From Hymenobacter sedentarius (GTDB taxonomy: Bacteria > Bacteroidota > Bacteroidia > Cytophagales > Hymenobacteraceae): DNA of 64,000 nt. Below the pieces are notes generated by a model. That model ran no database searches. It was given only the letters and a program-made list of their open reading frames with translations, and was not told the origin of the DNA. The stretch spans positions 1,054,001-1,118,000 of the forward strand of contig NZ_CP013909.1 in assembly GCF_001507645.1 (NCBI RefSeq), read 5' to 3'. Every line of letters begins with the position of its first letter. The first letter of the stretch is position 1. Position numbers and translations under genes: made by a program. Below are positions 21,922 to 51,282 of the stretch, in pieces.

Positions 21922-21953
21922 GACAAAAATGTTTCACGTGGAACATTTTTGTC
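21922..21953. promoter_or_regulatory. parS-like ParB-binding site in a 32-bp palindrome
   Basis: The 16-mer TGTTTCACGTGGAACA at 21930-21945 fits the parS consensus (TGTTnCACGTGAAACA read on the other strand). It lies at the centre of a longer palindrome (GACAAAAATGTTTCAC / GTGGAACATTTTTGTC) with one central mismatch. The right arm reaches into the stop codon of the HTH gene. It could act as ParB site and 3' hairpin at once. Confidence 0.8.
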
Positions 21954-22338
21954 ACTTCGGCCCATACACTTTTAGCAATAGCTCATTGTAGGCCTCCAAA
22001 AGGGCAATGTACTTAGACTGGAGTATTAAAAGCTGCCGGGAAGGGTCAACGTCAGGGCTTTGCGACTGTGTTACACGAGGTGTAACAACAGGTGTTACAA
22101 CAGGACGAGGCGCAGATGTTACAAATGGTAAAGACGATTGTTGTACAGCTGTAAAGTCAATTGAAAAGTCATGATTGATAATTTCACCCACCTTCTTTAC
22201 GAAGTTGTAATCAATAGTGTCTTCTTTGAATTTACGGTAAATAGTAGGACGTGTAATACCCAGTTCGTCCACGATACGGGTGATGGAAATACCGCTGTTT
22301 TTGATAGCTTCTTGCAGGATTTCGCCTTGATGTGGCAT
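21952..22338 (-). CDS. Small helix-turn-helix DNA-binding protein
   Basis: 128 residues: HTH at about 15-40 (SGISITRIVDELGITRPTIYRKF), a charged middle, a Pro/Val/Thr-rich linker (PRPVVTPVVTPRVTQ) and a C-terminal helix with coiled-coil character (LLILQSKYIALLEAYNELLLKVYG), probably for dimerisation. The HTH resembles those of small Bacteroidota regulators of unknown role. The gene and its upstream region are AT-rich compared with neighbours and hold at least seven TGTTACA/TGTAACA motifs, suggesting autoregulation. It ends in the parS palindrome. No family name assigned. Confidence 0.8.
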   Translation of the reverse strand: MPHQGEILQEAIKNSGISITRIVDELGITRPTIYRKFKEDTIDYNFVKKVGEIINHDFSIDFTAVQQSSLPFVTSAPRPVVTPVVTPRVTQSQSPDVDPSRQLLILQSKYIALLEAYNELLLKVYGPK

Positions 22339-29318: not shown

Positions 29319-31223
29319 TTACGCCCGGCTGGCCACGGCGGCTTCGATGTCCGCCAAACTATCCTTCGGGATGGCGGCCAGCAGGCCTTGGGTGTATTCG
29401 TGCTGCGGCGCAGCATAGATGGCCGCCGCCGGGCCGCTCTCCACGATGCGGCCCTGGTGCATGACCAGCAGCCGGTCGCTCATAAACCGGGCCACGGATA
29501 GGTCGTGCGTGATGAACAAATAGGTGATGCCGAACTCGCGTTTGAGGTCGTTGAGCAGGTTGAGGACCTGCGCCTGCACCGAGACGTCGAGGGCCGAAAC
29601 CGACTCGTCGCAAACAATAAGCTTGGGCTGCAAAGCCAGCGCCCGGGCAATGCAGATGCGCTGCCGCTGCCCACCGCTGAACTCGTGCGGGTAGCGCTGG
29701 AAATGCTCCTCGCGCAGCCCCACGGTGCGCAGCAGCTCCATCACTTTCGCCTTTTGCTGCTGGCGGGTGCCGCCCACGTTGTGCACGCGCATCGGCTCCC
29801 AAATGGCCTCGCCCACCGTCAACATGGGATTGAGGGCGGCGTACGGGTCCTGGAATACCAGCTGCAAATCGCGCCGACGGCGGCGCAAGTCACCGCTCGA
29901 CAGCTTCGCCAAATCGGTTCCTTCGAACAGGATGCTGCCCGCCGTTGGTTCCGTGAGGCGGAGCAGCGCCCGGCCCAGGGTGGTTTTGCCGCAGCCCGAC
30001 TCCCCTACCAGCCCAATGGTCTCGCCGGGGTAGAGCGTGAAGCTGACATCGTCCACGGCCCGCACGTAGTCGGTAGCCCGCCGGAAAAAGCCCTTGCGAA
30101 GCGGGAAGTACACCTGGAGGTTTTGAACCTGGAGAAGCGGTTCGGTTGAGCTGGTTGTTGAGGCCACGAGGGGCTCGTTGAAAGGCACCGAAGTAAGCTC
30201 AACGGGGCGTGGAACATCCCTAACTGGGCTATGTTCCACGGGGAACGTTTTGGCGGTTTCGATTTTATCCCGTAACTGCTGTTGCTCCACTTCAGGCGAA
30301 GATTCCACAAGTGCCTCATCTGGCAGCGGAAGCACGGGCGCGGGCTGGGCCAAAAGCTGCCCGCTGGCGTCTTCCCGCATGAAATCGGCCACCACGGGCA
30401 GGCGTTTTTTGCCCACCGAGAGGCGCGGACGGCACGCCAAAAGCCCTTTTGTGTACGGATGTTGGGGATTTGAAAAAATATCCAGCACCCTCCCCTGCTC
30501 CACGACCTTGCCCCGGTACATCACCAAGATGCGGTCGGCGATTTCGGCCACTACGCCGAGGTCGTGGGTGATGAAGAGCACGGCGGTGTTGTGCTGACGG
30601 CGCAGGTCGTCAATCAGGCGTAGCATCCGGGCCTGCACCGTCACGTCGAGGGCGGTCGTGGGCTCGTCAGCAATGAGTAAGGCCGGGCGGCAGGCCATGG
30701 CCATGGCAATCATCACGCGCTGCTTCTGGCCGCCCGAAATCTCGTGCGGGTAGCTGTTGAAGATGGCTTCGGGCCGCGGCAGTTGGGCTTCGGCAAACAG
30801 CTCAATGGTGCGCTGCTTGGCGGCCTTGGGCGTGCAGTCGGTGTGCAGCAGCAGAGCTTCCACCACCTGGCTGCCGCAGGTATACACGGGGTTCAGCGAG
30901 GTCATCGGCTCCTGGAAAATCATCCCAATGTCGTTGCCGCGCACCTGGCGCAGGTCGGTTTCGGAGATTTTCAGCAGGTCGGTATTGCCGAGTTTTTCGG
31001 AAAGAAATACGGTGCTGCCGCTGGAAATGCGGCCGGGCGGCATCGGAATCAGCCCAAGCAGAGCCAGCGAAGTCACTGATTTGCCCGAGCCCGACTCCCC
31101 CACAATGGCCAGCGTTTCGCCACGGTTCAGCTCAAATGACACGTTGTCCACGGCCCGCACGTCGCCGCGGTGGCTGGAGAAGTCAATGGTGAGGTTAGAA
31201 ACGGTGAGGAGGGGGTTGGGCAC
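29319..31223 (-). CDS. Fused oligopeptide/dipeptide ABC transporter ATPase
   Basis: 634 residues with two complete ATPase domains, the DppD- and DppF-like halves in one chain. First: Walker A GESGSGKS (43-50), signature [15 protein letters not shown], Walker [13 protein letters not shown]. Second: Walker [10 protein letters not shown] (near 405), signature [15 protein letters not shown], Walker [13 protein letters not shown]. Each is followed by the oligopeptide transporter tail ([22 protein letters not shown]). It powers uptake of peptides, nickel or glutathione-like substrates; the permease and binding protein are not nearby. Domain linker at about 290-370 is poorly conserved. Confidence 0.94.
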
Positions 31224-48447: not shown

Positions 48448-50316
48448 TTAGCGCCCCAGGTACACCATCAGCACCGATACATCGGCCGGCGAAATGCCGC
48501 TGATGCGCGAGGCCTGCCCAATGGTTTCGGGCTGAATCTTGAGCAGTTTCTCCCGGGCCTCGTGGCTGAGCGCCGGCATGGCCCGGTAGTCGAGCCGGCC
48601 CTGGATTACGAAGTTTTCCAGCTCCTGCTGGCGGGCGGCTTGCTGGTGCTCCTTTGCCAGGTAGGTTTCGTACTTAATGTTGATGATGGCCTGCTCCAGG
48701 GCTTCTTCATCAAACGCTGCGAGGGCCATATCCAGCGCGGGCAGGGCCCGGCGCAGGTCAGCCAGCTCCAGGTTGGGCCGGCGCAGAAGGTTCACCGCGC
48801 GGGTCTTCTCGTGGATTTCGGCCGAGCCTAGCTCAACCAGCATAGGATTCGCCTCAGCCGCTTCGATGCCGAACTTCTGCAGTAGCTCGGCTACTTCAGC
48901 CGTCTGCGCTTCCTTCATCCGCACCCGTTCCAGCCGCTCGTCCGAGGCCAGACCCAACTCGTGGCCCAGGGGGGTGAGGCGCAAGTCGGCATTGTCCTGG
49001 CGCAGCAGAATGCGGTGCTCGGCGCGGCTCGTGAACATGCGGTAGGGCTCGTCGGTGCCTTTGTTTACTAGGTCGTCGATGAGCACGCCGATGTAGGCTT
49101 CGCTCCTTTTCAGGACGAAGGGCGCCTTGCCGTGCACTTTGTTGTGGGCGTTGATGCCGGCCATCAGGCCCTGGCAGGCGGCTTCTTCGTAGCCCGTGGT
49201 GCCGTTGATTTGGCCCGCGAAATATAGGTTCTGCACGCGCTTGGTTTCCAAGGTCAGCCCAAGCTGGGTGGGCGGGAAAAAGTCGTACTCGATGGCATAG
49301 CCCGGGCGGAACATCTTGGCGTTTTCGAAGCCCGCGATTTCGCGCAGGGCGCGGTATTGCACGTCTTCGGGCAGCGAGCTCGAAAAGCCATTGATGTAGC
49401 ACTCCACGGTGCTCCAGCCCTCGGGCTCCACAAAAATCTGGTGCCGGTCTTTGTCGGCGAAGCGGTTGATTTTGTCTTCTACCGACGGGCAGTAGCGCGG
49501 CCCCAGGCCCTTGATGCGGCCCTGGAACATGGGCGACTTCTCGAAGCCCTCGCGCAGGATGTCGTGCACCCGCTCGTTGGTGTAGGTGATGTAGCAGGGC
49601 CGCTGCTGCGTGAGCCGCGGCGTGTCGATGTAAGAAAACTTGCTGGGCACGTCGTCGCCGCCCTGCACCTCCATTTTGGAGTAGTCAAGGCTGCGGCCGT
49701 CCACGCGGGGCGGGGTGCCGGTTTTCATGCGCCCGGCTTCAAAGCCCAGCTCCAGCAGCTGCTCGGTGATGCCGCGGCTGCCTTTTTCGGCCGCCCGGCC
49801 GCCCCCGAAATTCTTCTCGCCGATGTGGATGAGGCCGTTCAGGAAGGTGCCGTTGGTAAGCACCACCGACTTGCCCCGGAACTCGATGCCGAGCTGGGTT
49901 TTCACGCCCACCACGGCGTCGTCTTCCACCACGAGGCCGGTCACGGCTTCCTGCCAGAAGTCCACGTTTTTGATGCCTTCCAGGGTCAGGCGCCAAGCTT
50001 CGGCGAAGCGCATCCGGTCGCTCTGGGCGCGGGGGCTCCACATGGCGGGGCCCTTGGAGCGGTTCAGCATCCGGAACTGAATCATGGTCTGGTCGGTGAT
50101 GATGCCCGACTGGCCGCCCAGCGCGTCGATTTCGCGCACAATCTGGCCCTTGGCTACGCCGCCCATGGCCGGGTTGCACGACATCTGGGCGATGGTGTTC
50201 ATGTTCATCGTCACCAGCAGCACCTTCGAGCCGAGGTTGGCGGCCGCGGCCGCGGCTTCGCAGCCGGCATGGCCCGCGCCCACTACAATGACGTCGTAAT
50301 CTTCTTGCTGAAACAT
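48448..50316 (-). CDS. mnmG: tRNA uridine-5-carboxymethylaminomethyl modification enzyme MnmG (GidA)
   Basis: 622 residues, normal. FAD-binding GxGxxG is [12 protein letters not shown] (11-22). Characteristic blocks are [26 protein letters not shown] (near 40-65, with the conserved Cys), [25 protein letters not shown] and the C-terminal HTH-like [27 protein letters not shown]. With MnmE it makes cmnm5U34 in tRNAs. mnmG (gidA, 'glucose-inhibited division') often lies near oriC; it does so here, 3.3 kb from the box cluster. A TAATTTTG element is at 50451-50458. Confidence 0.97.
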
Positions 50317-50450: not shown

Positions 50451-50458
50451 CAAAATTA
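50451..50458 (-). promoter_or_regulatory. -7 promoter element (TAATTTTG) for mnmG
   Basis: Minus-strand TAATTTTG matches TAnnTTTG, 135 bases before the mnmG start and just past the parS hairpin. Confidence 0.45.
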
Positions 50459-50468
50459 CGAAATCAAA

Positions 50469-50506
50469 AACCCGCAGCCAGTTTCACGTGAAACGAGTTG
50501 CGGGTT
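50469..50506. promoter_or_regulatory. parS-like site nested in a terminator hairpin
   Basis: The core GTTTCACGTGAAAC (50481-50494) is a perfect 14-bp match to the centre of the parS consensus. It is enclosed symmetrically by AACCCGCA / TGCGGGTT, so the whole 38 bp can form a hairpin (16 of 19 pairs). On the minus strand the sequence continues GCGGGTTTTTGATTT, a T-rich tail, so it also looks like the terminator of the gene at 50536. Confidence 0.82.
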
Positions 50507-50535: not shown

Positions 50536-51282
50536 TTACTCGGCCGGGCCGGTTAGCTTTTCGGCAAGTTCGCGCAAGCCCTCGGGGAGCCAGTCGGCCA
50601 GCAGCTCAACGGAGTGGGCAGTTACGGCTGCGCGGGAGTACGTTTGCCACCGGCCCCTGACGCTGTCGAATACTTCGGTGGCCGCCGCGCTCAGCGACAG
50701 CTTGTAGTCGAATTTCGGGTAGTCGTGTACCACGTAGCCGGGGTAGTAATAATCCAGGTCCAAGCGGCGGGCATAGTCGGTTTTTAGCAGCAGCAGGTAC
50801 TTGCCCAGGCTGTGCTGCCGGTACGCGGGGTCGTAGAAATTCAGGATGCCGGCCACGCTGCGGTCGCCGCGGTCGAAGATGCCGGCGGCCACGAGGCGGT
50901 GGCCGTCGCGCAGCTCAATAATGTACGTGTTGAACACGTTGTGCTCGGCCCCACCCAGCAGCACGGCCTCCACGGTGGGCGAGGCATCGAAGGTGATGGC
51001 GCTGCGGTAGCGGCCGTACAGTTCTTCGTGCTCCGAAGTGAGCCGGAACGGCTGGATGGTGGCCGCAAAGCGGGCATTGCGCCGAAGCAGGCGGCGCTGT
51101 TCTGGGCCCCATTCCACGCGGGGCAGCACCACGCGCAGCCAGTGGGCAGTGTAGAGGCGGCCATCAAAAGGCACAAACTGGCAGGTGAATAAGTCCTGCT
51201 GCATGCGGTAGTAGCCCTGGCCCAGGTAAAAATCCAAGGCTTCGCCCCGAATAATGGGCAACCCAGAAGAAGAGGCGGACAT
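50536..51282 (-). CDS. ATE1-like (arginyl-tRNA-protein transferase C-terminal fold) protein
   Basis: 248 residues from MSASSSGLPIIRGE. The C-terminal motif LDLDYYYPGYVVHDYPKFDYKLSL is that of arginyl/leucyl-tRNA-protein transferases (GNAT-like fold), where YYYPGYxxxxxPKxxYK contacts the substrate. AGILNFYDPAYRQHSLGKYLLLLK is the preceding GNAT-like strand-helix. The N-terminal cysteine domain of full ATE proteins is missing, so N-end rule activity is only a possibility. Its end is marked by the parS hairpin. Confidence 0.8.
   Translation of the reverse strand: MSASSSGLPIIRGEALDFYLGQGYYRMQQDLFTCQFVPFDGRLYTAHWLRVVLPRVEWGPEQRRLLRRNARFAATIQPFRLTSEHEELYGRYRSAITFDASPTVEAVLLGGAEHNVFNTYIIELRDGHRLVAAGIFDRGDRSVAGILNFYDPAYRQHSLGKYLLLLKTDYARRLDLDYYYPGYVVHDYPKFDYKLSLSAAATEVFDSVRGRWQTYSRAAVTAHSVELLADWLPEGLRELAEKLTGPAE

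Follow-up and report, generated by a model that had tools for sequence, protein, structure and literature searches.

The universal chromosomal parS site of ParABS systems, as in B. subtilis, Caulobacter, and P. aeruginosa, has a 14-bp palindromic core that acts as a loading site for ParB, and par operons usually lie within the origin domain (PMC7022226). The P. aeruginosa ParB is described as repressing the promoters that adjoin the intergenic sites parS3 and parS4 (PMC5521831). In Neisseriaceae, inverted pairs of the DNA uptake sequence are associated with terminators, where a DNA signal belonging to another process doubles as the terminator stem (PMC3630211). Here, we describe a parS core in Hymenobacter sedentarius, named parS2, that lies at the tip of a hairpin at a gene end. 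We consider it likely, based on sequence comparisons, that parS2 is an auxiliary parS overlapping the Rho-independent terminator of an ATE-like gene, and that the two signals are independent rather than parts of a coupled switch.

The window, i.e., the whole stretch of 64,000 nucleotides that was analyzed, corresponds to positions 1,054,001-1,118,000 of a 4.87-Mb single-contig genome, and its relevant features are listed in Table 1. A sequence-only reading of this DNA had placed a match to the universal parS core at the exact center of a 38-bp hairpin, past the ATE-like gene and ahead of mnmG, with a T-rich tail behind it on the minus strand. This description was borne out. The core GTTTCACGTGAAAC matches perfectly and sits midway between the hairpin arms, 12 nt from each end of the 38-bp repeat; the 8-nt arms AACCCGCA (50469-50476) and TGCGGGTT (50499-50506) are perfect complements; the T-rich tail is present in the sequence (TTTTTGATTT with the final TT of the stem included); and the neighboring genes are identified by their PF04377 and PF01134 matches. 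The spacers between arms and core (4+4 nt, GCCA/GAGT) pair in part, and pairing amounts to 84% over 19-nt arms. The minus-strand RNA folds with -20.9 kcal/mol (z -4.8), a value that 0/200 shuffles equaled. The plus strand folds too (-23.0) but without such a tail, so the structure is terminator-like in the minus-strand direction only. A stable GC-rich outer stem of eight pairs and a T-rich tract are thus found on the coding strand past a stop codon, with 29 nt between the stop of the ATE_C-domain gene and the hairpin, as in an intrinsic terminator. It should be noted that the hairpin was absent from a simple terminator scan, which looked for stems with a 3-8 nt loop and an immediate T run; its stem has inner mismatches. 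Between the hairpin and mnmG, TAATTTTG starts 22 bp after the parS2 core, and we take it to fit the Bacteroidota -7 element consensus, TAnnTTTG.

Table 1 Features of the parS2 and parS1 loci, with positions counted from the first nucleotide of the window
Feature	Position	Strand	Evidence	Assignment
parS2, universal parS core GTTTCACGTGAAAC	50481..50494	.	0 mismatches	Predicted ParB loading site
38-nt hairpin with parS2 at its tip, arms AACCCGCA / TGCGGGTT	50469..50506	-	Inverted repeat, fold, compensatory changes	Predicted intrinsic terminator of the ATE-like gene
T-rich tail, minus-strand TTTGATTT, continuing the TT of the stem	50461..50468	-	Sequence; TTTTTGATT intact in 11/16 carriers	Predicted terminator tail
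TAATTTTG	50451..50458	-	Sequence; kept in relatives with and without parS2	Bacteroidota-type -7 element, likely mnmG promoter
mnmG (gidA)	48448..50316	-	PF01134, E 2.3e-164	Gene after the hairpin
ATE_C-domain gene	50536..51282	-	PF04377, E 7.5e-21	Aminoacyl-tRNA-protein transferase-like gene, before the hairpin
parS1, GTTTCACGTGGAAC	21931..21944	.	Sequence match, genus comparison, neighbor domains	Genus-wide site type, downstream of recF and dciA
32-bp inverted repeat GACAAAAAT-parS1-ATTTTTGTC	21922..21953	.	Plus-strand fold -17.0, z -3.1; arms covary	

At the base composition of this genome, approximately 0.008 exact copies of the parS core are expected by chance in 4.87 Mb. Only two exact GTTYCACGTGRAAC sites were found, parS1 and parS2, both within the window and 28.5 kb apart. 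The GTTYCACGTGRAAC core was present in 61/61 of the first-sampled genomes of the genus, and the reversed pattern, used as a control, gave 0 matches in this genome and 5 across 61 genomes. One-mismatch matches to GTTYCACGTGRAAC were no commoner genome-wide than the control; therefore, a third candidate in the window, GTTCCACGGGGAAC (30233-30246), which is one mismatch from GTTYCACGTGRAAC and lies within a 637-codon minus-strand open frame, was taken as a chance match. The idea that GTTTCNNNNGAAAC is a common hairpin tip was also rejected, as it is not over-represented in the genome (5 places versus 5 for the control). No Rfam family scored above the gathering score in the regions searched.

A single ParB is encoded in this genome, with ParB_N, HTH_ParB, and ParB_C domains, and a ParA-like reading frame was recognized by eye directly upstream of parB. 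Both parB (G000:C1:2637007, L005) and dnaA (2476253, L006) are outside the origin domain, ~1.53 Mb and ~1.4 Mb, respectively, from the parS sites. Alignment to solved ParB chains, together with spacing, gave R-Y-K-G at the four specificity positions, Spo0J R149 presumably being the equivalent arginine in this mapping. Among ParB orthologues, the R and G at the outer two of these four positions are conserved (PMC7383237), and the ParB of this genome is predicted to be able to read parS. A Noc-type site in place of parS was rejected, since the ParB carries parS-type residues and the TATTCCCGGGAAAC-like string of genome G046 is within coding sequence. Sites of the family usually have an outer T/A pair that parS2 is missing, and the affinity of parS2 for ParB may therefore be lower.

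The other site, parS1, is found in a convergent gap, with recF-like and dciA genes upstream of it and a small HTH gene after it. Samples of GC skew from 20 places were negative at 0-0.99 Mb and positive at 1.215 Mb, with weak and irregular skew elsewhere in the genome; within the window, the skew climbs from ~22 kb. This change of sign and the rise within the window indicate that the replication origin is probably close to parS1. Judged by this weak skew, sampled at 20 places, and by the 28.5 kb that separate it from parS1 with its recF and dciA neighbors, parS2 lies in the probable origin region.

Across the genus, parS1 is the center of an inverted repeat of ~30 bp that is longer in some genomes. 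Its arms covary, with 468/522 cells pairing over 58 distinct sites, compared to a mean of 448 and a maximum of 460 in 2000 shuffles that do not control for relatedness. In this genome, the stop codon of the minus-strand HTH gene (21952-22338) falls within one arm, so a terminator reading is weaker for the parS1 repeat than for parS2. Such arms were not seen at the sampled parS sites of the family's other genera or of the other families of the class (Bacteroidia). A broader generalization is that ParB loading sites in this genus are set into the middle of long gene-end inverted repeats (parS1 genus-wide, parS2 in the terminator of one clade), that the arms work for the centromere, for instance by shielding the loading site from passing RNA polymerase, and that mutation of a terminator tip can give rise to new parS sites; we regard this as speculative and rather unlikely. 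As to the number of sites, most genomes of the genus have a single core, and most of the sampled Bacteroidia have at least two parS cores, often 0.1-2 kb apart. A centromere-like tandem array was also observed at L246 (G230:C24), where ~99-bp units each carry a parS core, with 7 in a row and 12 sites in the genome.

The exact sequence GTTTCACGTGAAAC was found in 17/120 genomes of the genus. In 16 of them, this genome and 15 close relatives, it is parS2, located 127-367 bp upstream of mnmG, a location that is identical in all 16 carriers; in the 17th (G088), it is parS1 itself that has the symmetric form. The carriers cluster on the mnmG tree (5 or 8 state changes versus ~14-15 for shuffled labels), which is compatible with one gain of parS2 followed by several losses, the basal branches of this tree being weakly supported. 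Related hairpin tips that are not parS occur in G012, G032, G062, and G077. As the base of the tree is poorly resolved, it does not give the direction of change, parS from tip or tip from parS.

Other elements were observed upstream of mnmG. Outside the parS2 clade (for example, L055, L052, and L197), this region contains a conserved short unit in which TATCTTTG is followed by a GCGCACGTTTTGAGCGTGTTGCG-like stretch and that by a hairpin with a T run. This unit may be an mnmG leader or a small RNA; an Rfam search of it at L055 and L052 gave no family above the gathering score. REP-like inverted repeats are found between the ATE-like gene and mnmG in G029, G044, and G048 (L045, L044, and L050), where parS2 is lost or decayed.

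The 16 carriers were aligned with four relatives that have a recognizable site, three of which are decayed and were excluded from the counts, leaving 17 genomes whose core has no more than one mismatch. In these 17 genomes, parsimony gave 1 change in the 14 positions of the core, compared to 38 in 16 positions of the outer arms, 19 in 8 inner bases, 20 in 5 positions of the T tail, and 95 in 22 positions of the upstream flank. The parS2 core is thus conserved beyond its surroundings, with the caveat that carriers were picked by an exact core match, so that core identity among them is partly forced by the sampling. The argument rests on close relatives, which have an exact core, a core one mismatch off (G070), a clearly decayed one with four mismatches (G080, G048, and G066), or no trace of it at the locus (G046, G072, G044, G029, G097, and G108), with none at two or three mismatches. 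In the stem, over the 17 sequences, 86.5% of cells pair and five pairs have changed on both sides. The covariation score was equaled by 6/500 shuffles, which ignore relatedness, and slid versions scored far lower. Examples of compensatory changes are AATCCGCA/TGCGGATT in G025 and ACA/TGT in G064, versus GCA/TGC in others.

These data bear on one alternative, in which the tip of a terminator happens to read as parS and ParB has no role. Hairpin tips are palindromic anyway, and terminators near the locus in G032, G062, and G077 have GTTTC/GAAAC at the tip around a loop that is not parS, as this alternative would have it. However, so few exact copies are expected per genome, the site is near the origin, and the core is both far more conserved than the stem and retained where the hairpin has been lost. 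We therefore consider a chance resemblance highly improbable.

The core and the terminator have been lost separately among the relatives. The core, at least 6 of the 8 outer pairs, and the T tail occur together in 11/16 carriers. In G049, G019, G024, and G083, the exact core is found with only 3 to 4 of the 8 pairs and no intact T tail, and in G065 most of the stem is kept with the exact core and the T tail is broken. The core is thus without a terminator in four or five of the 16 carriers, the fifth being G065, to which this applies in part. Conversely, all 8 pairs and the T tail persist in G080, where ATTTCCTCTGAAAC replaces parS, and G070 keeps the stem and T tail with a core one mismatch off. 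G046 and G072 have lost the intergenic region, and the stop codon of the ATE-like gene now lies within the TAATTTTG box; in several relatives both core and terminator are gone.

The sequence-only reading had proposed that the two elements could be coupled and had asked whether stem and core are kept together in related genomes. Joint keeping in 11/16 carriers agrees with that proposal, and the separation in G049, G019, G024, G083, G065, and G080 does not. In such a coupled device, ParB at the hairpin would change termination of the ATE-like transcript, with read-through into mnmG, or the terminator would protect the ParB loading site from RNA polymerase. That each element can be lost alone argues against an obligatory device, although a benefit of coupling that is conditional would fit the carriers that keep both. 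It would likewise fit that parS1, too, is centered in an inverted repeat with covarying arms where a gene ends, and that arms around parS thus recur in the genus; the parS1 arms, however, have another sequence and extend into a stop codon, where a terminator would be badly placed, and no such arms are found at class-wide parS sites. As close relatives hold each element without the other, the coupling claim is unsupported, and we judge a coupled device improbable.

The position of TAATTTTG raises another possibility, namely that ParB at parS2 mainly represses mnmG. The distance from the core to TAATTTTG is 21-22 bp in 15/16 carriers, including those that have lost the stem and T tail, and repression of adjoining promoters by ParB at parS3 and parS4, as described for P. 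aeruginosa (PMC5521831), makes such a role conceivable. However, a scarcity of indels may be all that keeps the distance constant, relatives that lack parS2 retain the -7 element, and no -33 element is evident. Promoter control as the main function of parS2 thus seems quite improbable.

An auxiliary parS overlapping an independent terminator accounts for these observations as follows. ParB would load at parS2 as at parS1, so that the origin domain would hold a second loading site at a distance of 28.5 kb from the first. The hairpin with parS2 at its tip would end the ATE-like transcript independently of ParB. Because the parS core is a palindrome, it can form the upper part of a terminator stem at little cost, and the overlap would be cheap for both signals. 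The core, on the one hand, and the outer stem and T tail, on the other, would be kept by separate selection. The comparisons show the sequence and its genomic position, the conservation of the core, the covariation of the stem, and the loss of either element alone; we infer ParB binding, termination, and, for this strain, the absence of coupling. ParB located 22 bp upstream of TAATTTTG might also damp mnmG transcription, a plausible side effect that we offer as a conjecture.

Among titles and abstracts of the open-access literature, a coverage that makes for weak evidence, no report of a parS nested in a terminator was recognized, and none named Hymenobacter together with parS. As far as searched, this arrangement is new. 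A centromere site and a terminator, signals unrelated to each other, would share one palindrome, and relatives have lost each half separately. Such relatives offer natural comparisons, already at hand, with which to ask if being transcribed matters to a ParB loading site. They belong to a genus in which a longer inverted repeat with covarying arms surrounds the main parS, a feature unseen at the other sampled parS sites of Bacteroidia.

In comparison with known systems, parS2 resembles the universal chromosomal parS in its exact 14-bp palindromic core, its location near the probable origin, and the presence of a canonical ParB with parS-type specificity residues. It differs in that this putative ParB site is at the tip of a gene-end hairpin and is without the outer T/A pair that the 16-bp form has. 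As in the case of P. aeruginosa parS3 and parS4, it is an intergenic parS near a promoter and close to the origin; repression of the adjacent promoter is shown there and conjectured here, and a terminator hairpin is not mentioned in the available part of that report (PMC5521831). The hairpin is like known intrinsic terminators in its GC-rich outer stem, T-rich tail, placement 29 nt after the stop, and compensatory changes, whereas its upper stem is a fixed parS sequence and the predicted terminator is dispensable in several relatives. The association of uptake sequences with terminators in Neisseriaceae (PMC3630211) is the nearest precedent for this architecture, by analogy, since a DNA signal of another process doubles as a terminator stem in both. 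The Neisseriaceae pairs are many per genome and belong to a different process, whereas there is one segregation site of this kind per genome here.
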